From assembly GCA_937900515.1 (NCBI GenBank), contig CALCCU010000087.1, positions 1-33,536 of the forward strand: 33,536 nucleotides of DNA, written 5' to 3'. Positions within the stretch are counted from its first letter, which is position 1. Each line of letters opens with the position of its first letter. The DNA is from an uncultured Gammaproteobacteria bacterium (GTDB taxonomy: Bacteria; Pseudomonadota; Gammaproteobacteria; Nitrosococcales; Methylophagaceae). The translations under genes were made by a program, and so were the position numbers. This document shows positions 188 through 33,362 of the stretch, in pieces. Under the pieces are notes generated by a model. That model was not told where the DNA came from. It saw only the letters and a program-made list of their open reading frames with translations, and ran no database searches.

Positions 188-1102
188 ATGTATGTACATG
201 TTTTAGGTTCAGGGGCTGGTGGTGGTTTCCCTCAGTGGAATTGCAATTGCGTCAATTGCAAAGGTGTCCGTGAAGGAACTATCAAGACAACTCCCCGAAC
301 TCAGTCTTCAATTGCGATTAGTGCGAATGGTACCGATTGGATTTTATTCAATGCCTCGCCTGATATTAAAAAGCAAATGGATGACTTCCCTGCATTGCAG
401 CCAGCTCGTCAAGTACGTGATACAGCTATTACTGCTATCGTTATTACTGATGCTCAAATCGATCATGTAACTGGTATGTTAACTTTGCGTGAGCATAATA
501 AACCTTGGGATGTATATACAACTCAAGCAGTGTATGAAGATTTAACAACAGGTTTTCCAATTTTCAATATTTATGACCACTTCCGTGGAATAAATCATCA
601 TGAAATTGCAACAGATGAAAGTACGTTCACAATCCCAACAGCAGAAGGATTAGTGTTTACGCCTGTACCTCTAAAGAGTGAAGCTCCTCCATACTCACCG
701 CATCGTCACAATACTGTCCCTGGCGATAATATCGGCATGTTAATTGAAGATACGCGTAGCGGAAAGAGCTTATTTTATGCGCCAGGTTTAGGTGAAGCTG
801 AACCTCACGTTCTTGAATATATGCGTAATTCAGATTGTGTATTAGTTGACGGTACAGTGTGGACAGATGATGAAATGTCTCATGAAGGTATTAGCGATAA
901 GCGAGCACAAGAAATGGGCCATCTAGACCAGTCAAGCGATGGCGGTATTATGGATATTTTGAAAAGCATGGAAAAACCACGCAAGTTCTTAATTCATATT
1001 AACAATACCAACCCAATTTTAAACGAGGATTCTCCCCAGCGTAAAATCTTAGATGCTGCAGGAATTGAAGTGTCATACGATGGCATGGAACTCGAGCTTT
1101 AA
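188..1102 (+). CDS. pqqB: PqqB, metallo-beta-lactamase-fold PQQ biosynthesis protein
   Basis: PqqB is a cytoplasmic metallo-beta-lactamase-fold protein, thought to act as an iron-dependent hydroxylase on the Glu-Tyr intermediate before PqqC. The 304-residue length is typical. The N-terminus reads GSGAGGGFPQWNCNC followed by VNC, the family's Cys-x-Cys-x-x-Cys zinc site at about residues 19-24. TDAQIDH (around residue 90) is the altered metal motif of the family. The ATG has only a weak upstream purine stretch, and the gene lies after the leader hairpins, which suggests lower expression than pqqA. It is followed by pqqC after 28 bases. Confidence 0.97.
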   Translation: MYVHVLGSGAGGGFPQWNCNCVNCKGVREGTIKTTPRTQSSIAISANGTDWILFNASPDIKKQMDDFPALQPARQVRDTAITAIVITDAQIDHVTGMLTLREHNKPWDVYTTQAVYEDLTTGFPIFNIYDHFRGINHHEIATDESTFTIPTAEGLVFTPVPLKSEAPPYSPHRHNTVPGDNIGMLIEDTRSGKSLFYAPGLGEAEPHVLEYMRNSDCVLVDGTVWTDDEMSHEGISDKRAQEMGHLDQSSDGGIMDILKSMEKPRKFLIHINNTNPILNEDSPQRKILDAAGIEVSYDGMELEL

Positions 1103-1130
1103 ATAATAAGAATTAATAAGGAATAGAAGC

Positions 1131-1883
1131 ATGTCAGAACAAACACCTTGGACACACGAAGAATTCGAAGCACAATTACGTGCTAAGTCAGATATGTACC
1201 ATTTTCATCATCCATTTCATCAGCTGATGCATGCGGGTAAAATGACAAAAGAACAAGTCCAAGGCTGGGTTGCAAACCGTTTTTATTACCAAACGGCTAT
1301 TCCTATTAAAGATGCTGCGATCATGTCTAACTGTACGGATCGTGAAGTACGTAAACATTGGGTTCAACGTATTTTAGATCATGATGGACATGACGGTCAT
1401 GGGGATGAGCCAGCTGATGTAGGTGGTATTGAAGCATGGTTACAATTAGGTGAAGCTGTTGGTTTGACACGTGAAGAGTTATGGTCAGAAGAGCATGTAT
1501 TACCAGCTGTTCGTTTTGCTATTGATGCATATATTAACTTTGCGAAACAAAGACCATGGCAAGAAGCAGCAAGCTCTTCATTAACTGAATTATTTGCTCC
1601 GACGATCCATAAACATCGTATTGACCATTGGCCTGAACATTACCCTTGGATTGAGCCTCAAGGTTATAATTATTTCAAAAAACGTTTACATGAAGCTCCA
1701 CGCGATGTCATGAATGGTTTACAAATTACTATGGATTACTACACAACACGTCCTGAACAAGAGCGTATGCTAGGTATTTTACAATTCAAACTAGATGTAC
1801 TGTGGACTATGTGTGATGCTATGTGGATGGCATACGTTGAAAAACGTCCTCCTTACCGTACAGACTTGGAAGTAGAAAAATGA
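1131..1883 (+). CDS. pqqC: PqqC, pyrroloquinoline-quinone synthase
   Basis: PqqC performs the last step of PQQ synthesis, the cofactor-less eight-electron oxidation and ring closure of AHQQ using O2. The 250-residue protein matches the family length (about 250) and its all-helical heme-oxygenase-like fold. Conserved stretches include [21 protein letters not shown] and the His/Asp-rich loop [10 protein letters not shown] near residue 84. An AAGGA ribosome-binding site precedes the ATG. Its stop overlaps the pqqD start (ATGA), so the two are translationally coupled. Confidence 0.97.
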
Positions 1884-2164
1884 CAGCACGCGTATTTAAC
1901 GCAGATAGCATTCCGGTACTAGCACTGGGATATCGTTTTCAATGGGAACCTGCACAGAACTGTAATGTGCTGTTATATCCTGAAGGCATGGTTAAATTAA
2001 ATGGTGCCGCTGGTGAAATATTAAAGCGCATTAGTGAAAAGAAACAAACAGTAGCTGAATTGATTGCTGAATTAACAGTTGCCTTTGAGGGCGCTGATTT
2101 AGGTGATGATGTGTATCAGTTTTTAGAGGAGGCTTTCAACAATGACTGGATCCGACCAGAATAA
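1880..2164 (+). CDS. pqqD: PqqD, PqqA-binding RiPP recognition chaperone
   Basis: PqqD binds the PqqA peptide and presents it to the radical SAM enzyme PqqE; it is the founding RiPP recognition element. The 94-residue length is normal. The start gives the family pattern around residues 10-40 ([23 protein letters not shown] and LNGAAGEIL, each shown in part). It overlaps pqqC by four bases and pqqE by 23 bases, so the three are coupled and probably made in matched amounts. Some species fuse pqqC and pqqD; here they are separate. Confidence 0.95.
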
Positions 2165-3326
2165 AGCACCAGGAAGTATTGGTGGCTCGATTGGCAGTGT
2201 GCGTGATCAAGTTCGTCAACCTCTATGGTTATTAGCTGAGCTTACCTATGCCTGCCCTTTGCAATGTCCTTATTGTTCAAATCCAATGGACTTTGCCAAT
2301 GTTAAGAAAGAATTAACTACTGAAGAATGGTTAGATGTATTCCGTCAAGCACGAGCGATGGGAGCGACTCAATTAGGTTTGTCAGGTGGTGAACCATTAA
2401 CTCGTCCTGATTTAGTTGAATTGGTACGTGAAGCACGAAAAATGGGCTTCTATACTAACTTGATTACATCAGGTGTAGGAATGGATGCATCTAAAGTTGC
2501 TGAGTTAAAAGAAGCAGGTTTAGATCATATTCAAGTGAGCTTCCAAGCAAGCTCTGAAGATTTGAATAACCTGATTGCTGGCACTGATGCTTTCAAGCAT
2601 AAAATTGAAATGGCCAAAGCAGTTAAAGCGAATGGTTATCCGATGGTATTGTGTTTTGTAACACATCGCCAAAACATTGGACAAATGGATGAAATTCTAG
2701 ATTTGGCAATTAATCTAGAAGCTGATTATGTTGAACTTGCTACCACTCAATATTATGGGTGGGCAATGCATAACCGTGATCAGTTATTACCATTGAAAGA
2801 ACAGCTTGAAGAAGCTGAGGCGGTTGCACACCGGTATCAGGAAGAACAAAAAGGTAAGATGAAAATCTACTATGTTGTGCCTGATTATTATGAAGATCGT
2901 CCTAAAGCCTGTATGAATGGCTGGGGGAATGTGTTCTTGACTGTCACTCCAGATGGTACTGCATTACCGTGTCATGCTGCTCGTGAATTACCTGGAATGA
3001 CATTACCTAATGTTAAAGATATGAGCGTTGAAGAAATTTGGCATGGTTCAGATGACTTTAATAAATTCCGTGGTTTTGAGTGGATGTCTGAACCTTGTCG
3101 TTCATGTGATGAAAAAGAAAAAGACTTTGGTGGCTGTCGTTGCCAAGCCTATATGCTAACAGGTGATGCAACTAATACTGATCCTGTTTGTTCTAAATCA
3201 CCTAATCGTCATCTTGTTGATGAAGCGATTGCAAAAGGCCGTTTAGAATCTGAAAAACCAGTGGATGAAGCTAAGCCATTAGTATTCAGAAACCCCAAAA
3301 ATTCTAAACTGATCAGTGGGCTTTAG
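2142..3326 (+). CDS. pqqE: PqqE, radical SAM PqqA cross-linking enzyme
   Basis: PqqE makes the carbon-carbon bond between Glu and Tyr of PqqA in the first committed step. The radical SAM CxxxCxxC motif is at Cys38, Cys42 and Cys45. A C-terminal SPASM region, with Cys residues around [28 protein letters not shown] and PVCS, supplies auxiliary clusters. The start has a strong AGAGGAGG site inside the end of pqqD, giving a 23-base overlap. The 394-residue length is normal. Its last 11 bases overlap the GTG start of the following ABC ATPase. Confidence 0.97.
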
Positions 3327-15521: not shown

Positions 15522-16361
15522 TTATTCTACGGGTCTTTCACGCATAAATACTGGGAATCTTGGTATTTTATTTTTGGTGAGGCCGAAATATTTAAAGGTG
15601 ATAATACTACCAATTTTAGGTGGGTGTTGGCGTTGTTGGTCTGATAAGCCGGAGCCTATAAAAAAAGTCAGGCCCGATGCCAGTTTGCAGTGTAAAGCAC
15701 CCGTTTGTCCCTTGTATTTTCCTTTACCAGTTTTGTAGGCAATCACTATGCATTCCGTATCTTGATACTGTTTGACTTTTAATGCACCACTGGATCGACC
15801 TGTTTGATAGAGAGTCGCTGGTTTTCGAACGACTAATCCTTCACCTCCTAAAGCAATGACTCTGTTGAGTTCTGTTTGTAATTGTTCCGAGGAGTTAACT
15901 GTTGTTTGTGGAATGACTTTTAGAAATTTAGAGGGGTGTTTGTTTAGAAAATGTTTTAAAACTGACAGTCTAGCTAATAAGCTTCCTGGTTGATTAGGTA
16001 CTTCAAAAATATTGTAGCTGATGCTTTTCCAACGTTTGTCTGGTGTCTGAGTGCGAACGATTGAGCTAATGGTTTCGAAGTCATTACGGTGAGTCCATAA
16101 TTCGCCATCAATAGCGAAAGGCGGTAAGCTCTGGATAAACCAGTCAGGAGCAGCTATAGGATTACCTTTACGGGTTGTCAGTGTCCTACCATCCCAAATG
16201 GCTCGAATGCCATCGAGTTTTTCACTCATCAACCAACCTGTGACATCTTGCGATTTATCGTAGGTTTTAAGTAATAAAATCTCCATGTTTTGTGCATGAC
16301 ACAAAGGGCTAAAACATAGCAGTACTGTTAATAGCCCTTTAAAAATCCATTTAAATGTCAT
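15522..16361 (-). CDS. ligE: LigE-type ATP-dependent DNA ligase with signal peptide
   Basis: A minimal ATP-dependent DNA ligase. The adenylation motif is KLDGIR with Lys48 as the nucleotidyl acceptor, followed by the downstream motifs DGELW, GEGLVVRKP and ALKVKQY and a short OB domain. Residues 1-23 form a signal peptide (cut after CHA), so it should act in the periplasm, as proposed for Lig E in naturally competent proteobacteria. A longer frame begins at 16409 but overlaps hemL; the ATG at 16361 places the signal peptide at the N-terminus and is preferred. At 279 residues it matches Lig E. The replicative ligase would be NAD-dependent LigA elsewhere. Confidence 0.9.
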   Translation of the reverse strand: MTFKWIFKGLLTVLLCFSPLCHAQNMEILLLKTYDKSQDVTGWLMSEKLDGIRAIWDGRTLTTRKGNPIAAPDWFIQSLPPFAIDGELWTHRNDFETISSIVRTQTPDKRWKSISYNIFEVPNQPGSLLARLSVLKHFLNKHPSKFLKVIPQTTVNSSEQLQTELNRVIALGGEGLVVRKPATLYQTGRSSGALKVKQYQDTECIVIAYKTGKGKYKGQTGALHCKLASGLTFFIGSGLSDQQRQHPPKIGSIITFKYFGLTKNKIPRFPVFMRERPVE

Positions 16362-16377
16362 CGTAGCGCTTATTCTT

Positions 16378-17667
16378 TTATAGTGTTGCGAATACCTTTT
16401 CTGCAGCATCTAATGTAGCTTGAATTTCTGCTTCGCCATGAGCGGCTGAAACAAATCCCGCCTCATATGAGGAAGGGGCAAGATAAACACCTTGTTCTAA
16501 CATGCCGTGGAAGAATTTCTTGAAACGCTCTTGGTCGCATTTGCTGACTTGTTCGAAACCGGTCACTTGTTTTTCATCAGTGAAAAATATGCCGAACATC
16601 CCACCCACTTGATTAGTTGTGAGTGGAATACCAGCTTTATCAGCACGTTCTTGTAAACCATCAACCAGTGCTTTTGCAGTAGCTGATAAGTTTTTATGAA
16701 AGTCAGGTGCTTGTACCAATTTAAGGGTACTTAACCCAGCAGCCATGGCAACAGGGTTGCCTGATAATGTACCCGCTTGATAAACAGAGCCGAGTGGTGC
16801 AATACATTCCATTACTTCGCGTTTACCGCCAAAAGCACCAACAGGTAAACCACCACCCACAACTTTACCTAATGTTGTTAAGTCAGGTTTTACATCATAG
16901 TATTCTTGCGCGCCACCTAATGAAACACGAAAGCCAGTCATGACTTCATCAAAAATAAGTACGGCGCCGGATTGGTCGCAAATTTCACGTAAACCTTGTA
17001 AGAAACCATCTTCTGGTGGAATGCAATTCATATTGCCTGCAACAGGTTCAACAATGATGCAGGCAATTTGGTCGCCTAATTCGGCGAAGCATTCACGAAC
17101 TGAATCTAGATCATTATAGATAAGGGTTAGTGTATGCTCGGCAAGCGAAGCGGGTACACCAGCGGATGAAGGTTCGCCAAGGGTTAATGCGCCCGAACCT
17201 GCTTTCACTAGTAATGAATCTGCATGGCCATGATAGCAACCTTCGAATTTAACAATTTTGTCACGGCCAGTGTAACCACGCGCAAGACGAATGGCGCTCA
17301 TAGTCGCTTCTGTTCCAGAGCTCACCATGCGAACTAACTCCATTGAAGGCACTAGACGACAAAGTGTATTAGCCATTTCGATTTCGATTTCAGTCGGTGC
17401 ACCAAACCCTAAACCATGTGAAACTGATTCTTGTACAGCACTAATCACTTCAGGGTGTGCATGGCCTAAAATCATTGGCCCCCATGAGCCGATGTAATCG
17501 ATATAACGTTTACCTTCAGCATCGGTTATCCAGGCACCTTTACCTTCGCGGAAGAATATAGGATCGCCGCCTACACCTTTAAAGGCGCGTACAGGTGAAT
17601 TAACACCACCAGGAATATGGTTTTGGGCTTCTGAAAAAAGGTCGTGATTAGTATGTGTAGTTGTCAT
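16378..17667 (-). CDS. hemL: Glutamate-1-semialdehyde 2,1-aminomutase
   Basis: HemL converts glutamate-1-semialdehyde to 5-aminolevulinate, the C5-route precursor of heme and, further on, cobalamin. It is a class III PLP aminotransferase. The PLP lysine is Lys268 in [17 protein letters not shown]; the VIFDEV-like motif is [12 protein letters not shown], and the N-terminus has [16 protein letters not shown]. The 429 residues equal the usual length. It is the first gene of a minus-strand run with the DNA ligase 16 bases downstream. Heme demand is high here, since the window also encodes cytochrome bd and a c-type heme protein. Confidence 0.98.
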
Positions 17668-25817: not shown

Positions 25818-25849
25818 AAGCACTTCCATAAATGTATAAGGACGTTGAA

Positions 25850-27952
25850 ATGTCATCAGCTGACTATTTGAGAACGCCATTGCTGACTGGTAATGATATC
25901 GAAGCGAAACGTGCAGAAATAAAAGCATATTTTAATGCTACGTCTGATCGCTATGAGTCTTTGTTTGAAGTATTAATTGATGATAAAGCTTATTATCAGC
26001 GGCCTATTCCGTTGAGGCACCCACTGATTTTCTATTACGGGCATACAGCTACTTTTTTTGTTAATAAACTTATTTTGGCTGGCTTAATACAAAAGCGTAT
26101 CAACCCCGATTTTGAATCAATGTTTGCTATAGGTGTTGATGAGATGAGCTGGGATGATCTCAATCAAACTCATTATGACTGGCCGGAAGTGAGTGCTGTT
26201 AAAGCTTATCGTCAGCAAGTCCGGGCCTGTATCAATAACTTAATCGACTCGGCCCATCTGAGTTTACCGATCGATTGGGATAATCCTTGGTGGACGATTC
26301 TGATGGGCATTGAGCATGAGCAAATTCATATCGAAACATCATCTGTATTGATTCGACAACAAAATTTAGAGTGGATTAAACCTCATCCAGCTTGGAAGAC
26401 TTGTCAAAATAGCGGGCTTCCTCCTGAAAATTCATTATTAACGGTATCTGCTGGAAGGGTTGAGTTAGGTAAACCCTATGATGATCCAATTTATGGTTGG
26501 GATAATGAGTATGGTCATCATCAAGCTGATATAAAGTCATTTGAAGCAAGTAAGTACTTAGTTAGCAATTATGAGTTTTTAGCGTTTGTTGAAGCAAATG
26601 GCTATAGTAATGATGACTATTGGTTAGAAGAAGGACTGCAATGGCGTAAGTTTACCAAAGCCAAGCATCCTACCTTTTGGATAGATTCAGAACAAGGCTG
26701 GCAGTGCCGATTAATGACTGAAGTCATCGCGATGCCGTGGGATTGGCCTGTTGATGTGAATTATCATGAAGCAAAAGCATTTTGTAACTGGAAAGCTGAA
26801 CAAACTGGAGAGGCCGTTCGTTTACCCTCTGAGGATGAATGGTACAGATTGTATGAGCAGGCTGGAGTCAGTGAACTCACACAGCAGCAAGCAAGTGCTA
26901 ACTTACACTTAGACCATTACGCTTCTTCTTGTCCAATTAGCCAATTCTCTCAGGGTGAGTTTTTTGATGTGGTTGGTAATGTCTGGCAGTGGACAGAAAC
27001 GGCTATCTATCCTTTTGATGACTTCAAAGTACACCCTTATTACGATGACTTTACAATGCCAACTTATGATGGTCGGCATGGTCTGTTTAAAGGCGGCTCG
27101 TGGGCTTCGTGTGGCAATGAAACTCAACGTGCTGCTCGATATGCCTTCCGCAGGCATTTTTTCCAACATGCCGGTTTTCGCTATGTTGTCGCTGAACCAC
27201 TTAAGGAGCCTGTAGTGTCTCACTATGAAGACGATAAAATGCTATCTGAATATGCTGAATTCCATTATGGCGATAGCTATTTTGGTGTTGATAACTTCCC
27301 GCAGCGTTTAGCCCAAATTGCAATTGATGCCATGGGTGATAAACCTGCTGTTAAGGCTCTAGACTTAGGTTGTGCAGTTGGTCGAGCTAGTTTTGAGTTA
27401 GCAAAGCATTTTGATCATGTTACTGGTATAGATTTCTCAGCACGATTGATTAACCTAGGGGTTCAACTTGCAGAGCAAGGTGTGACGCGGTATAGCATCG
27501 CAGATGAAGGTGACTTGAGATTATATCGCGAGCGACATTTAGCTGATTTAGGTTTGGATGATGTTACTGATAAAGTTGAGTTTTTACAGGGTGATGCTTG
27601 TAATCTGAAACCTATTTTTACAGGCTATGATCTAGTATTAGCAGCTAACCTAATCGACCGCTTGTATGAACCAGCCTTATTCTTAAACTCAATCCATAGT
27701 CGTATTAATCAGGGCGGAGTATTAATGATTACCTCACCTTATACATGGCTTGAAGAACATACTAGTAAAGAAAATTGGGTAGGAGGCTTTAAACAGGATG
27801 GTGAAAACGTCACTACCATCGAAGGGCTTAAAGCGATGTTGGGCGAGCATTTTGAATTAATATCCGAGCAACAAGTTCCTTTCGTTATTAGAGAGACTAG
27901 TCGCAAACATCAGCATACCTTGTCAGATGTGAGCATTTGGGTGAAAAAGTAA
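25850..27952 (+). CDS. ovoA: OvoA, 5-histidylcysteine sulfoxide synthase and methyltransferase
   Basis: OvoA is the iron enzyme that joins cysteine to carbon 5 of histidine using O2, the first step of ovothiol synthesis. Its C-terminal domain methylates the imidazole in the last step. Domains in order: DinB-like (about 40-200) with His65 in YYGHTA and the HxxxHxE set His156, His160 and Glu162; FGE-sulfatase domain (about 210-460) with GNVWQWTE and GGSWAS; SAM methyltransferase (about 470-700) with ALDLGCAVGR near 502. The full 700 residues match OvoA. The ATG at 25850 is chosen over 25832 because AAGGA at 25838-25842 is seven bases before it. Confidence 0.93.
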   Translation: MSSADYLRTPLLTGNDIEAKRAEIKAYFNATSDRYESLFEVLIDDKAYYQRPIPLRHPLIFYYGHTATFFVNKLILAGLIQKRINPDFESMFAIGVDEMSWDDLNQTHYDWPEVSAVKAYRQQVRACINNLIDSAHLSLPIDWDNPWWTILMGIEHEQIHIETSSVLIRQQNLEWIKPHPAWKTCQNSGLPPENSLLTVSAGRVELGKPYDDPIYGWDNEYGHHQADIKSFEASKYLVSNYEFLAFVEANGYSNDDYWLEEGLQWRKFTKAKHPTFWIDSEQGWQCRLMTEVIAMPWDWPVDVNYHEAKAFCNWKAEQTGEAVRLPSEDEWYRLYEQAGVSELTQQQASANLHLDHYASSCPISQFSQGEFFDVVGNVWQWTETAIYPFDDFKVHPYYDDFTMPTYDGRHGLFKGGSWASCGNETQRAARYAFRRHFFQHAGFRYVVAEPLKEPVVSHYEDDKMLSEYAEFHYGDSYFGVDNFPQRLAQIAIDAMGDKPAVKALDLGCAVGRASFELAKHFDHVTGIDFSARLINLGVQLAEQGVTRYSIADEGDLRLYRERHLADLGLDDVTDKVEFLQGDACNLKPIFTGYDLVLAANLIDRLYEPALFLNSIHSRINQGGVLMITSPYTWLEEHTSKENWVGGFKQDGENVTTIEGLKAMLGEHFELISEQQVPFVIRETSRKHQHTLSDVSIWVKK

Positions 27953-29124
27953 TGACTAACTTTGATCAAATAATTGATAGAACTACGAGTGACAGTGTTA
28001 AATATGATGCACGTAAAGCAGTATTTGGTCGAGAAGATGTAACACCACTTTGGGTGGCTGATATGGATTTTCCAGTCCCTGATGCAGTGAGCAAAGCCTT
28101 AATTGAGCGGGCAAAACATCCAGTGTTTGGGTATACCTTACACTCAGACTCAATGTTTGAAGCGATGCAAGATTGGTTTTTAAAACGGCACAATTGGGTG
28201 ATAGCCCAAAAAGAGATCATTATGTGTCCTGGAGTTGTACCTTCGATGCATGCCGCTATTCTTGCTTTGTCAGAGCCAGGCGATAAAGTGATCGTGCAAC
28301 CTCCTGTTTATCCACCTTTTTTTAGCGCTGTTACGGAAACAAAGCGTGAGTTACTTTTAAACCCACTAGTAATAAAAGATAAGCAATATCAGATTGATTT
28401 TGACCATTTAGAACAATGTGCTGCACAAGGGGCAAAGCTATTATTGTTGTGCTCTCCGCATAATCCTGTCGGCCGAGTCTGGTTGAATGAAGAGTTAGAG
28501 AAATTACTTGATATAGCCCGTCGCTATGATTTGATTATTATTTCTGATGAAATTCATGCTGACTTAGTTTTTCCTCACTATCAGCATACAGCGCTTGCTA
28601 CTTTAACAGACGATGTCAGTATTGTATCTGTTGTGTCACCGAGTAAGACTTTTAATATTGCCGGTCTAGGGTTGTCCTGTTTGGTTTCTAAAAATATTGA
28701 ACATCGCAAAGCGATTAAAAAAGTATTTGAAGAGTGGCACATGAGTGCATGTAATCCTTTTAGTATTGTTGCATTTGAAGCTGCGTACCGCAATGGTGCC
28801 GATTGGTTGGATGATTTGATGGAGTATCTGGCACAAACCAAGTTAGATGTGGAAGCTTTTTTTGAGAAAAATCTACCCGCGATTAAAGTATTTGAGGCGC
28901 AAGGTACCTACTTGTTATGGCTTGATTGTCGATCATTAAACATGACGGATTCAGAGTTAAAATCCTTTTTTATTGATAAGGCAAAGTTAGGTTTAAATAC
29001 AGGATTGAGCTTTGGTGAGTCGGGTAGTGGTTTTATGAGACTTAATATTGCAGCGCCAAGAGTGGTTATTATGAAGGCGTTAAATGACCTTAAACTCGCT
29101 TTTGATAAAAGAACATCAGTTTGA
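27952..29124 (+). CDS. ovoB: PLP-dependent lyase, OvoB candidate (PatB/MalY-like)
   Basis: A 390-residue fold-type I PLP enzyme of the MalY/PatB class, which cleave carbon-sulfur bonds. The PLP lysine is Lys232 in SPSKTFNIAGL; SDEIHADLVF and CSPHNPVGRVW are family blocks, and the start gives the PatB-like VTPLWVADMDFP. Because it starts within the OvoA stop codon (TAATG), it is most simply OvoB, which cleaves the histidylcysteine sulfoxide to the free thiohistidine. By sequence alone it could also be a cystathionine beta-lyase; the coupling to ovoA decides. A GTG at 27937 would add five residues and is less likely. Confidence 0.85.
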   Translation: MTNFDQIIDRTTSDSVKYDARKAVFGREDVTPLWVADMDFPVPDAVSKALIERAKHPVFGYTLHSDSMFEAMQDWFLKRHNWVIAQKEIIMCPGVVPSMHAAILALSEPGDKVIVQPPVYPPFFSAVTETKRELLLNPLVIKDKQYQIDFDHLEQCAAQGAKLLLLCSPHNPVGRVWLNEELEKLLDIARRYDLIIISDEIHADLVFPHYQHTALATLTDDVSIVSVVSPSKTFNIAGLGLSCLVSKNIEHRKAIKKVFEEWHMSACNPFSIVAFEAAYRNGADWLDDLMEYLAQTKLDVEAFFEKNLPAIKVFEAQGTYLLWLDCRSLNMTDSELKSFFIDKAKLGLNTGLSFGESGSGFMRLNIAAPRVVIMKALNDLKLAFDKRTSV

Positions 29125-29294: not shown

Positions 29295-29489
29295 ATGACA
29301 ACAATTGGTACAGCAGCTGGCACCGTATGGACTTACCTCGATACGAATGGAGCAAGTAGTGCAACTAAGATAGCGAAAGACACAGGCTTGGATGCGAAAA
29401 GTGTACAACGCGCTATTGGCTGGTTGGCAAAAGAAGATAAATTACTTATTTTGACTAAAGGTCGAACAGAGACTATTTCTTTAAAATAA
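29295..29489 (+). CDS. Small winged-helix protein (DUF2582 type)
   Basis: A 64-residue protein that is one winged helix-turn-helix: GTAAGTVWTYLD, then NGASSATKIAKDTGL for the turn, DAKSVQRAIGWLAKEDKL for the recognition helix and a short wing (ILTKGRTETISL). It fits the DUF2582 family of small bacterial proteins, whose DNA target is not established. AAGGAAG lies ahead of the ATG. It is monocistronic, with its own palindrome upstream and a terminator after it. Confidence 0.82.
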   Translation: MTTIGTAAGTVWTYLDTNGASSATKIAKDTGLDAKSVQRAIGWLAKEDKLLILTKGRTETISLK

Positions 29490-29494
29490 AGATA

Positions 29495-29525
29495 AGCCTG
29501 CATGGTAGCGCATGTTGGCTTTTTT
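29495..29525. terminator. Terminator between the winged-helix gene and the cyd operon
   Basis: AGCCTGCATG (29495-29504) pairs with CATGTTGGCT (29511-29520), with one T-T mismatch and one G-T pair, around loop GTAGCG, and five T follow. It lies six bases after the winged-helix stop. On the other strand the last codon of the heme protein gene sits in the same T run, so it may end both units. Confidence 0.75.
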
Positions 29526-30081
29526 ATTGTGCTGCTTGGTGAATGGTGAATGCGCCTCGAATATCACCTACAGAAAACCCTGTTGCTTGATCGTCAGGGT
29601 ACAGTGTATGAATCCTTGCTTGCACATTAGCAGCGATATTACTGCCATGACAGGTCAAACAGACTTGCCCTGTCGGTATCGCTTTCATCATTCGCATCTC
29701 TATTCCTTCATCAGTAGATATTGCTTCGCTGAATGCTAATGAATTTATTGAATCACCGCTTTGTTTGAGATACTCGAATTGAGTCAAGATTTCAGACTCC
29801 CACTTATCTGCTTTATTCTTGTTATTGCGAACTTTGAGACTCGTACGACCTATTTTCATATTGTATTTTTGGGATAGATTTTCAGCTATCTTAGGCGCGA
29901 CTTGATTACAAACTGTAATTGCCTCAATCGGACCACCTGCCTTCATTGCAGTAATTAACTCAGCTTTTAGCGAAGTTGCAAACTCTTTGATGGCTGATTG
30001 GCTTTGTTGTGTGAATGCCAAATGTTCATTGGCGGAAGCATTAAAAGAGAGTAAAGCGGTTAATAAGATGGCTATTTTCAC
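29524..30081 (-). CDS. Secreted monoheme Tll0287/DUF3365-type cytochrome
   Basis: A 185-residue protein with a signal peptide (1-17, ending NASA) and a single heme c motif CLTCH at Cys141-His145. Upstream is the Tll0287-like (DUF3365) fold, marked by AVCNQ-like ITVCNQVAPKIAENLS and KIGRTSLKVRNNKN. Such domains occur as small heme proteins and as sensory domains in chemoreceptors and kinases, so a role in redox or ligand sensing is possible. It starts with GTG one base inside the ybgE stop codon (TAGTG), which makes it the last gene of the cyd operon. A cofactor link to oxidase bd is unproven. Confidence 0.87.
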   Translation of the reverse strand: MKIAILLTALLSFNASANEHLAFTQQSQSAIKEFATSLKAELITAMKAGGPIEAITVCNQVAPKIAENLSQKYNMKIGRTSLKVRNNKNKADKWESEILTQFEYLKQSGDSINSLAFSEAISTDEGIEMRMMKAIPTGQVCLTCHGSNIAANVQARIHTLYPDDQATGFSVGDIRGAFTIHQAAQ

Positions 30082-30356
30082 TATAAAACTCCTATTTTAT
30101 TCATAAGTATTATTAGGCTTGGAATCATGATTAACCAAGCTATTATTGGACTTAAAAGGTATCGGTATAGGCGACTGATAGGTTTAAATCCAACGCCGTG
30201 AATAAACCCTAGCATGATGCCTAATAGCAATAGCATTAAAAAATTATGATTAACGCTATTGTCGTTGTTCGTTACAGTATTTGGTGCAAGCAAAATAACC
30301 GTAGAGAGTACTATAGCGAGCAATAACGAAAGTGACTTACTTAGTGTGCCGTACAT
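30081..30356 (-). CDS. ybgE: YbgE/CydE small membrane protein of the cyd operon
   Basis: A 91-residue inner-membrane protein with three hydrophobic segments. The FIHGVGFKP block near residue 52 is the family mark of YbgE, which accompanies cydX in many gammaproteobacterial cyd operons. Its role is not settled; assembly or stability of oxidase bd is the usual suggestion. It follows cydX by four bases. Its stop codon overlaps the GTG of the heme protein. Confidence 0.88.
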   Translation of the reverse strand: MYGTLSKSLSLLLAIVLSTVILLAPNTVTNNDNSVNHNFLMLLLLGIMLGFIHGVGFKPISRLYRYLLSPIIAWLIMIPSLIILMNKIGVL

Positions 30357-30360
30357 GTTG

Positions 30361-30462
30361 TTAGTCAGCGTTATCCATATCTTCTGATTCCAGCCACATC
30401 ACGTTAATAATGCCGAAAGCGACAGCAAGAAGCACACCCAAAAGCCATGTGAAATACCACAT
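30361..30462 (-). CDS. cydX: CydX, small subunit of cytochrome bd oxidase
   Basis: A 33-residue single-span peptide starting MWYFTWLLGVLLAVAF, which matches CydX, a subunit that stabilises the heme groups of CydAB. It lies immediately after cydB. Two ATG codons stand in tandem (30465 and 30462); the second is chosen because it matches the family start MWYF and is six bases from AGGAG. The acidic tail (LESEDMDNAD) is also typical. Easily missed because of its length. Confidence 0.93.
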   Translation of the reverse strand: MWYFTWLLGVLLAVAFGIINVMWLESEDMDNAD

Positions 30463-30471
30463 CATTATCTC

Positions 30472-31614
30472 CTAATAGGTTGTATGTTGATTGCTACGAA
30501 TAAAGTGTGTGTCTAATTGACGCCACATTTTTCTATAAGTCCAAAAACTATAGAGAGCAATAATAGGTATAAAGATGACTGCCACCCAAAACATAATTTG
30601 AAGCGTCAATAAACTAGATGTTGCATCCCACAATGTTAAGCTACTGTTAATAGCTGTACTCGAAGGCATAATAAATGGAAATAAAGAAAACCCTGCAGTT
30701 AGAATGATGCCTGTAATAGCTAAGCTACTGCCCACAAAAGCTAGGCCTGCGCGATCATTATGAGCTGAGATATAAACGGTTATTGCACCCAGAAAACCTA
30801 AAATAGGTGCTGCTACCATCCATGGATATAAACCATAATTAGTCAACCATGCACCTGCTTGTTGACTGACTTGCTTCTGTTCTGGTGTAAAGGCTAAATT
30901 TGCATCAGGCATAGAGTTGATAACAAAACCATCGATGCTATAAGTAAGCCAGCCCCCTGCTGTTGCAAAAAGTATGATCAACAGTAGGGATGTCAACTTT
31001 GCAGTACTGCGTGATCGCGCTTCTAGACCATCTAAAGTACGCATTTGAAGCCATGTCGCACCATGCATTACGACCATGGTTAAACTGATAACACCAGTTA
31101 ATAAGGAGAAGGGGTTTAATAGATGTAAGAATGTGCCAGTGTAGAAAGGACGCATAAATTCATCAAAATGGAATGGCACACCAATGAGTAAATTACCAAA
31201 AGCGACGCCAAAAATCACAGGAGGAACAGCACTACCAACAAATATACCCCAGTCCCAGCTAGTACGCCAAGCAGGGCTGCTTAATTTACTACGGTAATCA
31301 AAGCCAACTGGCCGAAAGAAAAGGGCGAACAGCGTAATCATCATCGCTAAATAGAAGCCTGAGAATGCCATTGCATAAACTAAGGGCCATGCTGCAAATA
31401 GGGCTCCGCCTGCTGTTACTAACCAGACTTGATTTCCTTCCCAGTGGGGACCAATGGAATTAAGCATGATACGTCGCTCTTCATCACTATTACCTATTAA
31501 CGGCAATAATGTTCCAACGCCCATATCAAAACCGTCTGTAAGAGCAAATACAATCAGTAAAACACCTATTAGTGCCCACCAAATTAGTTTGAGTGTTTCA
31601 TAGTCTAAGGTCAT
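30472..31614 (-). CDS. cydB: Cytochrome bd ubiquinol oxidase subunit II
   Basis: CydB is the second large subunit of the bd oxidase that reduces O2 to water with quinol electrons at high affinity. The 380 residues (E. coli 379) contain eight to nine membrane spans. Conserved blocks include ALTDGFDMGVGTLLP, GPHWEGNQVWLVTAGGALFAAWP (given in part) and VPFHFDEFMRPFY. The start ATG is six bases after the cydA stop codon, so they are one unit. Nothing is missing. Confidence 0.97.
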   Translation of the reverse strand: MTLDYETLKLIWWALIGVLLIVFALTDGFDMGVGTLLPLIGNSDEERRIMLNSIGPHWEGNQVWLVTAGGALFAAWPLVYAMAFSGFYLAMMITLFALFFRPVGFDYRSKLSSPAWRTSWDWGIFVGSAVPPVIFGVAFGNLLIGVPFHFDEFMRPFYTGTFLHLLNPFSLLTGVISLTMVVMHGATWLQMRTLDGLEARSRSTAKLTSLLLIILFATAGGWLTYSIDGFVINSMPDANLAFTPEQKQVSQQAGAWLTNYGLYPWMVAAPILGFLGAITVYISAHNDRAGLAFVGSSLAITGIILTAGFSLFPFIMPSSTAINSSLTLWDATSSLLTLQIMFWVAVIFIPIIALYSFWTYRKMWRQLDTHFIRSNQHTTY

Positions 31615-31620
31615 TTTTGA

Positions 31621-33180
31621 TTATCCTTTAGGATGAATTTCAAAGTGATAACGACCTGTATGCAAACTACTAGGGCCTAATCGTGCAAAGCGAATCATCA
31701 GGTACATTTCGACAATAAATAGCAATGTATAAAAAACAATAAATGCCATTAGACTGCTGTATACCGTGTCAACGGAGATACTTGAAACGGATAAGTGTGT
31801 AGGTAAAATACCACTGATTGACCATGGTTGACGGCCTACCTCAGCAACGACCCAACCAGCTTCTGCAGCAATCCATGGCAGAGGCAGTGCGAATAAGGCT
31901 ATTCGTAATAACCAAGGTTTTTTATACTCTTGTCGTTTGGCACAGTGATAGAAAGCGAGAGCAAAGATAAGTAGCATGGCGACACCACTTGCTACCATAA
32001 TTCTGAAACTCCAAAATAATGGTGCCACAGGCGGAATTGAGTGGCGAGCAGCAAGTTTAATTTGCTCATCCGTTGCATTACTTACATCATCTGTATATTT
32101 TTTCAATAATAGCCCATATCCTAAGTCATTTTTAACTGCTTCAAAGCGTTGCTTAGTATTGTCATCTTTTTGACCGCTTCTTAGTTGCTCTAGTAGCCCA
32201 TAAGCAATTATCCCATTACGAATACGGTGCTCATTTTCAATAATAATGTCATGGATCCCCATTACTTCTTCATTAAAAGAGCGAGTTGCAATTATCCCCA
32301 TGAGGTAAGGGATCTTGATGGCATAATCTGTTTCCATTGTGTCGTCATTCGGCATACCGAATAAAGTGAATGCTGCCGGTGCTTCTTCTGTGTGCCATTC
32401 AGCTTCAATGGCGGCTAACTTAGTTTTTTGAACATCACCAATTTCATAGCCACTCTCATCACCAAGTAAAATAACTGAGAAAATAGAAGCTAAGCCAAAA
32501 CCTGCTGCGATGGCGAAAGAACGTCGTGCAAAACCAATATCACGACCTTTTAATAAATAATAAGCACTAATGCTTAATACAAACATGGCGCCTGTAACGT
32601 AACCTGCCGCGACAGTATGAATAAACTTAACCTGTGCAACAGGGTTAAGAATAACTTCTGAGAAATTAGTCATTTCCATTCGCATGGTGTCGTAATTAAA
32701 CTCTGCGCCAACTGGATTTTGCATCCAGCCATTAGCAATCAGAATCCACAAGGCAGATAGGTTTGAGCCTATAGCTACGAAAAAGGTAGACATTAAATGC
32801 TGCTGTTTGCTTAAACGATCCCAACCCAGCAAGAACATTCCCACGAATGTCGATTCGAGCATGAATGCCATCATGCCTTCTATAGCGAGTGGGGCACCAA
32901 AAATATCACCGACATAGTGAGAGTAATATGCCCAGTTAGTTCCAAATTGGAACTCCATGGTGAGTCCTGTTGTGACGCCAAGAGCAAAGTTGATAGCAAA
33001 TAATTTGCCCCAAAACTTAGTCATATCTTTATAAATCTGCTTGCCTGTCATGACATAGACAGACTCCATAATGACTAACATCCACGATAAACCGAGTGTC
33101 AATGGCACGAATATGAAGTGATACATTGCCGTAATGGCAAACTGTAATCGAGATATATCGACGAGTTCTTCAGAAATCAA
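31621..33180 (-). CDS. cydA: Cytochrome bd ubiquinol oxidase subunit I, TTG start
   Basis: CydA carries hemes b558, b595 and d and the quinol site. The 519 residues match E. coli (522). The heme ligands are His21 in MYHFIF, His in [13 protein letters not shown] and Met in [11 protein letters not shown]. The quinol-loop block is long, and [13 protein letters not shown] is intact. The gene starts with TTG, overlapping the cydP-like stop codon as TTGA. The site AAGGAG is seven bases upstream, which supports this start; a TTG suggests tuned, modest initiation or coupling. The predicted high O2 affinity suits microaerobic growth. Confidence 0.95.
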
Positions 33181-33362
33181 TGGGGTTCTCCTTGCGCAGT
33201 ACCATGATTAAATAGTTTGTCAGCAACTGTCTGAGGGCTATCTATCGCCTGTGGCTCATCGAAAAAATAATGCCAAATGATAAATAGCAAGATAACTTTT
33301 ATTATCAGAACCACAATAATCTCCCTGAATAAGCGTTTATCTTGGGTAGGTTTGCTCACCAT
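33177..33362 (-). CDS. cydP: Small single-span membrane protein of the CydP type
   Basis: A 61-residue protein with one membrane span (about residues 17-34, [19 protein letters not shown] in part) after a basic N-terminus, and a polar C-terminus. It is first in the cyd operon, overlaps cydA by four bases and resembles the putative small oxidase subunit annotated as CydP in other proteobacteria, including the REI-x(6)-K-x(5)-I-I-W pattern. The role as a subunit is inferred from family naming and position only. Confidence 0.72.

Follow-up and report, generated by a model that had tools for sequence, protein, structure and literature searches.

The closest described relatives of the protein considered here are Tll0287 of Thermosynechococcus and the other stand-alone heme proteins of the DUF3365 (sCache_heme) family. 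The available text of PMC12889525 covers about 20,000 DUF3365 sequences, nearly half of them stand-alone domains, and gives these likely redox-related roles only. It further describes a stand-alone member from P. putida that keeps a stable Cys/His ligation and binds neither O2 nor NO strongly, as well as relatives fused to signalling modules that show NO-sensor properties. One DUF3365 protein is listed in a table in the accessible portion of PMC9230427. On the side of sulfur chemistry, the His/Cys-ligated c-type hemes of TsdA and SoxA are described as catalytic, with the chemistry taking place on the Cys ligand, and a class is proposed for them in the excerpted text of PMC9562282. FisR, SQR, PDO and TauE are treated for A. 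baumannii and Cupriavidus in the available part of PMC7315123, where cydAB is sulfide-induced and a link to SQR through the quinone pool is predicted. Sulfide-resistant respiration through cytochrome bd is the subject of PMC4815019, so far as its available text goes, and PMC6096048 deals with bd and sulfide in Alishewanella, naming cydE, cydA and cydB and no DUF in the part at hand. Here we describe a stand-alone DUF3365 gene that closes a cyd operon for quinol oxidase bd in the genome of an uncultured gammaproteobacterium of the family Methylophagaceae (assembly GCA_937900515.1). It lies on contig CALCCU010000087.1, of which we call the whole analysed stretch of 33,536 nucleotides the window. 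The link between cyd and DUF3365 is not accidental, but it is not general. From comparison of sequences, we give about an even chance to the reading that the DUF3365 protein works in the periplasm as a redox partner for reactive sulfur, within a branch of respiration based on bd.

Six minus-strand genes run almost without gaps from 33362 down to 29524 in the order cydP-cydA-cydB-cydX-ybgE-DUF3365, as seen in open reading frames and family scans. A sequence-only reading of this DNA had named the same genes in the same order, and all six reading frames lie where it placed them. The features of the region are these:

33177..33362, minus strand: cydP-like gene for a small membrane protein of 61 aa (NF045611, 48.4 bits against a cut-off of 29.6)
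31621..33180, minus strand: cydA, quinol oxidase bd subunit I, E. coli-type, 519 aa, TTG start (PF01654, 581 bits)
30472..31614, minus strand: cydB, subunit II, 380 aa (PF02322, 347 bits; TIGR00203, 508 bits)
30361..30465, minus strand: cydX, 34 aa (PF08173, 57.5 bits; TIGR02106, 58.1 bits)
30081..30356, minus strand: ybgE, 91 aa (PF09600, 78.2 bits against a cut-off of 25.2)
29524..30081, minus strand: stand-alone DUF3365/Tll0287 (sCache_heme) gene, 185 aa (PF11845, 93 bits against a cut-off of 24.1)
30079..30083, minus strand: TAGTG, the ybgE stop and the GTG start of the DUF3365 gene, a 1-nucleotide overlap read from the sequence
29295..29489, plus strand: convergent DUF2582 winged-helix gene, which marks the operon end (PF10771, 66.6 bits; synteny)

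The genes cydA, cydB, cydX and ybgE are contiguous on one strand, as in an E. coli-type cyd operon. The cydP and cydA frames overlap, provided that the TTG is the start of cydA; downstream of cydA, intergenic gaps of 6, 6 and 4 nucleotides are followed by the single-nucleotide overlap of ybgE and the DUF3365 gene. Upstream of cydP the contig stops after 174 bases. The best NCBIfam model for CydA, PRK15097, gives 893 bits, below its cut-off of 968, and YbgE reaches 53.6 bits with TIGR02112, below the cut-off of 89.55. The DUF2582 gene is a common downstream neighbour of the DUF3365 locus in Methylophagaceae. An internal promoter ahead of the DUF3365 gene was considered and rejected, as the region has no more sigma-70-like sites than shuffled sequence would have (13 against an expected 13.9).

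PF11845 is the sole Pfam family above cut-off in the DUF3365 protein, and there is no fused signalling domain. Its CXXCH motif, CLTCH at residues 141-145 (C141-H145), aligns with that of Tll0287, and C58 is aligned to the Tll0287 axial Cys. The N-terminus, MKIAILLTALLSFNASA-NE, resembles a signal peptide on inspection by eye. The single heme motif and the signal-peptide-like start had both been part of the sequence-only reading, and both are seen here, the start as a judgment by eye. The AlphaFold2 model (pLDDT 95.7) matches Tll0287 (PDB 5b82) with a Z score of 17.6 over 151 residues, the next structure reaching 9.1, and Tll0287 alone fell under E 0.001 in a structure search with the model. 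A search of the genome found no second DUF3365-family match. Together, these features suggest a c-type protein with one heme, belonging to the stand-alone sCache_heme (Tll0287) type and located in the periplasm, with location and heme attachment both predicted. Of 164 relatives, all have CXXCH and 163 the axial Cys (the exception is a truncated frame), these relatives being proteins retrieved by a profile built from Cys-bearing members. L068 and five loci of the order-wide set described below (L214, L219, L220, L221 and L229) were not matched by the profile and stand outside the 164; the five are short-frame PF11845 matches and probably another subtype. Lipobox-like starts are seen in L055:7703-8272 (ALAGC) and L061:6921-7490 (HLAAC), so some DUF3365 relatives may be membrane-held lipoproteins.

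Across a set of 50 Methylophagaceae genomes, DUF3365 occurs in 30 (in two as the fused form alone, 487-488 aa), CydA in 24 and both in 18. The DUF3365 gene directly follows cydAB-ybgE in seven genomes (G000, G201, G212, G213, G226, G227 and G228), and all seven genomes that hold both a cyd operon of this clade and a stand-alone DUF3365 gene have the two adjacent. The overlap of the ybgE stop with the start of the DUF3365 gene, to which the earlier reading had rightly drawn attention, recurs in six of these seven and spans two genera; it reads TAGTG in the window and TAATG in five, assuming for the latter that this ATG is the start, since three of the five frames have earlier start codons too. 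The seventh linked locus (L056) has a 5-nucleotide gap instead, and there a YgaP-like gene precedes the cyd operon. As for the remaining eleven of the 18, CydA belongs to another clade in G191 and G199, has the short CIO length in seven and is a fragment in G230, and the last, G185, has a cyd operon of this clade and only a fused DUF3365, located elsewhere.

CydA of these operons forms one clade (13 rows, support 95/91), and the pair sits at the same OvoA-side locus in six of the seven linked genomes, the window's included. In at least eleven of the 50 genomes DUF3365 is present and CydA gave no match, and most cyd-less genomes keep it at the same place, between ParE and the OvoA/DUF2582 side. 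An OvoA tree of 29 rows (without G195, G201 and G209) shows four changes for cyd at the locus and three for DUF3365. Because of the single CydA clade and the shared OvoA-side position, both cyd and DUF3365 look ancestral at the locus. The simplest reading is that an old Methylophagaceae operon probably had both genes and that separate losses followed; neither the DUF3365 protein nor bd would therefore require the other. At 11 of 28 family loci, a gene for a YgaP-like membrane protein is found upstream in the same orientation, within about 230 nucleotides in ten. In the window, an OvoA-like gene (706 aa) and then a gene of the pyridoxal phosphate (PLP) aminotransferase fold occupy 25832-29124, a pair that often adjoins the Methylophagaceae DUF3365 locus; the second gene, we presume, may be the C-S lyase OvoB of ovothiol synthesis.

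A second set comprised 138 genomes of the family of Colwellia (G231), a family chosen for known linked cases, with its genomes drawn regardless of linkage. DUF3365 is found in 60 of the 138 and CydA in 122, and DUF3365 adjoins cydA in at least 14, in four gene orders beyond the window's: DUF3365-cydAB-cydDC, SQR-DUF3365-cydAB-cydDC, cydAB-cydDC-DUF3365 and DUF3365-CIO-type cydAB-cydDC. Linkage counts here, as in the 184- and 217-genome sets below, are lower bounds. Chance adjacency would give about 0.16 cases for 40 randomly placed genes versus the 14 seen, an estimate from random positions that ignores shared ancestry. DUF3365 stands just 5' of an E. coli-type cydA in eight of the 14, just after cydC in three and before a CIO-type cydA in three; the order SQR-DUF3365-cydA-cydB-cydD-cydC is seen in four of these eight, two of which also have a PDO-like gene after cydC. 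Forty stand-alone loci were fetched from the 138 genomes, seven of them with less than 3 kb on one side of the gene. The remaining matches, which were fused sensors and, in about a dozen genomes, short frames, were assessed from their listed coordinates; no listed CydA is found within 60 kb of any of them.

The neighbours of these genes suggest a connection with the handling of sulfide and persulfide. The SQR was identified by its sequence match to PDB 3sz0 (E 1e-155), the regulator neighbour has PAS, sigma-54 and Fis-type domains, and a small neighbour gene is YgaP-like. The MBL-fold neighbour resembles Blh/PDO most, with a score below the cut-off of that model; scores below NCBIfam cut-offs were also obtained for the Blh-like PDO seeds and for the SQR of L184. 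CydD and CydC are above NCBIfam cut-offs in L115, and in L168 and L176 they match best to their families under cut-off. In the census, genes were labelled SQR, PDO, TauE or FisR-like by tblastn against identified seeds, and E. coli-type and CIO-type CydA were separated by match length. Near the 40 DUF3365 genes we found a FisR-like N-domain at 18 loci (weak in L199), cydA at 14, SQR at 10 and PDO at 8, with cydA or one of SQR, PDO and TauE at 21. All eleven linked loci with E. coli-type cydA have a FisR-like regulator; the three CIO-type loci do not. The 22 FisR-like domains in the census of 60 loci all carry C-x10-C-x6-C, which we take to be the spacing of reactive cysteines in Cupriavidus FisR. 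SQR or PDO adjoins DUF3365 without cyd at L181, L184, L191, L196, L200, L206 and L208. Full-length SQR at 79% identity or more is present in 16 genomes (in a seventeenth, G352, as a fragment), and DUF3365 adjoins it in nine of the 16. SQR stands directly before cydA with no room for DUF3365 in four others (G242:C69, G358:C90, G331:C6 and G348:C1), and the SQR-bd pairing therefore exists without the heme protein too. At L208, DUF3365 lies ahead of a PDO-like gene. The loci at which DUF3365 heads CIO-type cydAB-cydDC (L176, L177 and L178) come from three small genomes and occupy the tree branch next to L208.

An order-wide set of 217 genomes, some of them from the Colwellia family, has DUF3365 in 49 and CydA in 188. 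It adds one more genome with linkage to cyd, G571, which has the same DUF3365 sequence as G362; an SQR-linked DUF3365 in G533 with a FisR-like gene and cydA within reach; and FisR/DUF3365/PDO/TauE clusters in G561 and G522. By tblastn over the 20 loci fetched, most of the others in this set gave no seed match near DUF3365. A scan of named genomes kept the best 80 of 278 confirmed loci; one survey of neighbours took in all 80 and another 69 (47 without the family), 11 of the 80 having been dropped from it for want of a DUF3365 reading frame by blastp. Four Colwellia-type records among these best 80 read cydA-cydB-cydX-cydD-cydC-DUF3365; the check for CydX covered the window and the Colwellia loci of this order. 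In eight Colwellia-group genomes, all picked for having DUF3365, a long E. coli-type CydA match occurs in exactly the four with the cydC-DUF3365 operon. No neighbour common to all groups of the scan (Thioalkalivibrio, Thiodiazotropha and others) was found, neighbours being group-specific. At single loci, SoxX and SoxA come after DUF3365, apparently in the same operon (L099:5685-7611), with a SoxA match nearby in its relative L106; DsrE2 precedes DUF3365 in L102; and L104 (Colwellia) reads PDO-TauE-DUF3365.

Across the class, 184 genomes were sampled. Counting every architecture, DUF3365 is present in 86 of them and CydA in 85; the 30 genomes with both are fewer than chance would give (odds ratio 0.42, P 0.005), and a general co-occurrence of cyd and DUF3365 is rejected. 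Among the matches listed, linkage in one operon is found in the window's genome only; in G104 the two genes are 3 kb apart on opposite strands. The sequence-only reading had proposed co-occurrence across genomes as a gauge of the pairing, and the outcome is divided: linkage recurs in two families and five gene orders, while class-wide it amounts to at least one operon in 184 genomes. It had also held that the link would be accidental if homologous cyd operons almost never carried the gene, which is half the case, since across the class the link is very rare. A quick tree of DUF3365 (145 rows, 25 linked; 50 of 141 branches under 80; nineteen duplicate loci left out) gives 12 parsimony changes of the linked state versus a mean of 23.5 and a lowest value of 19 in 100 shuffles. 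Linkage is therefore partly inherited and partly re-formed, with gains and losses not told apart.

Our favoured reading, a partner for reactive sulfur, is drawn from the SQR, PDO and FisR-like neighbours in relatives and from the catalytic His/Cys c-hemes of TsdA and SoxA. As the product of the last gene of an old Methylophagaceae cyd operon, the DUF3365 protein would be made together with the bd oxidase through translational coupling. Its His/Cys-ligated heme would react with sulfide, persulfide or exported thiols in the periplasm, where Cys58 may be the reactive ligand, by analogy with the Cys ligand in TsdA and SoxA. Meanwhile bd, the sulfide-resistant oxidase, would sustain quinol oxidation. 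For methylotrophs of this group, methylated sulfur compounds are a presumed source of sulfide. We prefer a sulfur partner to a gas sensor, and we infer co-transcription, coupling, location, heme attachment, the sulfur role and its chemistry alike.

Several results weigh against a role in sulfur metabolism or against a tie to bd. A search at E 1e-20 gave no SQR match in the window's genome (96.8% complete), and among the linked Methylophagaceae G201 is the one genome of the seven with an SQR. Neither in the window nor at 27 other family loci is DUF3365 close to an SQR, PDO, FisR-like or TauE gene; the window as a whole has neither a PDO nor a FisR-like gene, the rest of the genome not having been searched for these two. 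With no close SQR in the genome and no PDO or FisR-like gene in the window, the sulfur reading for this organism therefore rests on relatives. Of the 40 Colwellia-family loci, 17 are without a cyd, SQR, PDO, TauE or FisR-like gene in the neighbourhood (five of the 17 cut by the contig end within 3 kb). Cyd operons of the window's clade lack a DUF3365 neighbour in G185, G192, G195, G197, G198 and G209, and DUF3365 itself is mostly without adjoining cyd in Methylophagaceae, where 30 of 50 genomes carry it and 7 have it linked. The negative class-wide co-occurrence counts in the same direction, as does the use of Cys-bearing members to collect the relatives in which the axial Cys is conserved.

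The protein could be a helper of the bd oxidase without sulfur chemistry, acting in assembly, in heme or thiol redox balance in the periplasm beside CydDC, or in electron exchange. DUF3365 directly adjoins cydDC in Colwellia-type operons and heads three CIO-type cydAB-cydDC operons with no SQR or FisR-like gene nearby, and Methylophagaceae operons retain it mostly without SQR, all of which speaks for such a helper; but the family genomes that have DUF3365 and no CydA match, together with the seven loci where it stands beside SQR or PDO without cyd, make us regard this as unlikely. That the two genes merely share a locus, coupled without function, has on its side that each occurs there without the other and that class-wide co-occurrence is negative. 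We consider it quite unlikely in view of the 1-nucleotide overlap in two genera, the pairing in several gene orders in another family, and the 12 changes of the linked state versus the shuffle mean.

We judge it very unlikely that the protein reports on the oxidase by sensing gases (NO, CO or O2) or redox state. The Cache-type sensor fold fits such a role, as do the fused relatives with NO-sensor properties described in the available text of PMC12889525; the window's protein, however, has no output domain and has the axial Cys, and a Cys-ligated stand-alone member bound O2 and NO weakly according to the same text. An O2/NO sensor was set aside for the missing output domain and the published behaviour of that member. 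The sequence-only reading had suggested a heme protein that reports on or serves bd. Its tie to the oxidase holds, in two families and five gene orders, while gas sensing is not supported for a protein that has no output domain and keeps its axial Cys.

A partner for reactive sulfur could also be the local form of something wider. Stand-alone DUF3365 proteins may be sulfur oxidoreductases of a new class, with a His/Cys-ligated heme in a Cache sensor fold, taking electrons or sulfane sulfur from sulfide, persulfide or thiols in the periplasm and repeatedly recruited into bd and SQR/PDO operons as a sulfide-proof respiratory module, of which the window's version would have lost, or never had, SQR. 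We put this forward as a doubtful proposal. The DUF3365 family and the cyd genes were already known. We found no paper joining DUF3365 to cyd, SQR or FisR in its title or abstract, in a search that covered few subscription journals and did not take in family synonyms such as 'c-type heme family protein'. The recurrent tie to bd oxidase and to sulfide-oxidation genes is the first concrete, testable physiological setting that we have found for stand-alone DUF3365 proteins, and it may illustrate how a branch of respiration that tolerates sulfide is assembled in some marine bacteria.

Elsewhere in the window, pqqB-, pqqC- and pqqE-like genes, expected for a methylotroph, are recognized by eye at 188-3326. 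An ATP-dependent DNA ligase-like frame at 15522-16409, also judged by eye, has a signal-peptide-like start and overlaps the end of a hemL-like gene.

Set beside known systems, the locus resembles each in part. Relatives in the Colwellia family show differing combinations of FisR-like, SQR, PDO, TauE and bd genes beside DUF3365, as in the FisR-regulated SQR/PDO/TauE operon of PMC7315123, whereas the window holds the bd and DUF3365 part only and not the cluster. With the Cys-ligated cytochromes TsdA and SoxA (PMC9562282), the protein has in common a c-type heme motif and an aligned Cys at the place of the second axial ligand; unlike them, it is modelled as a Cache fold with one heme motif and not as a cytochrome c fold. 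It is closest to Tll0287 of Thermosynechococcus (PDB 5b82) and the stand-alone sCache_heme proteins of PMC12889525, with which it shares Pfam family, fold, CXXCH and aligned axial Cys, together with a single-domain architecture and an export-signal-like start. What sets it apart from them is its place in a cyd operon; the words 'cyd', 'cytochrome bd', 'operon' and 'sulfide' are absent from the main text of PMC12889525, so far as available. Compared with the E. coli-type cyd operon, the window has the same content and order of cydA, cydB, cydX and ybgE. The E. coli operon presumably continues into ybgC-tolQRA. The window's operon differs in that a cydP-like gene leads it and its last, overlapping gene encodes a heme c protein.

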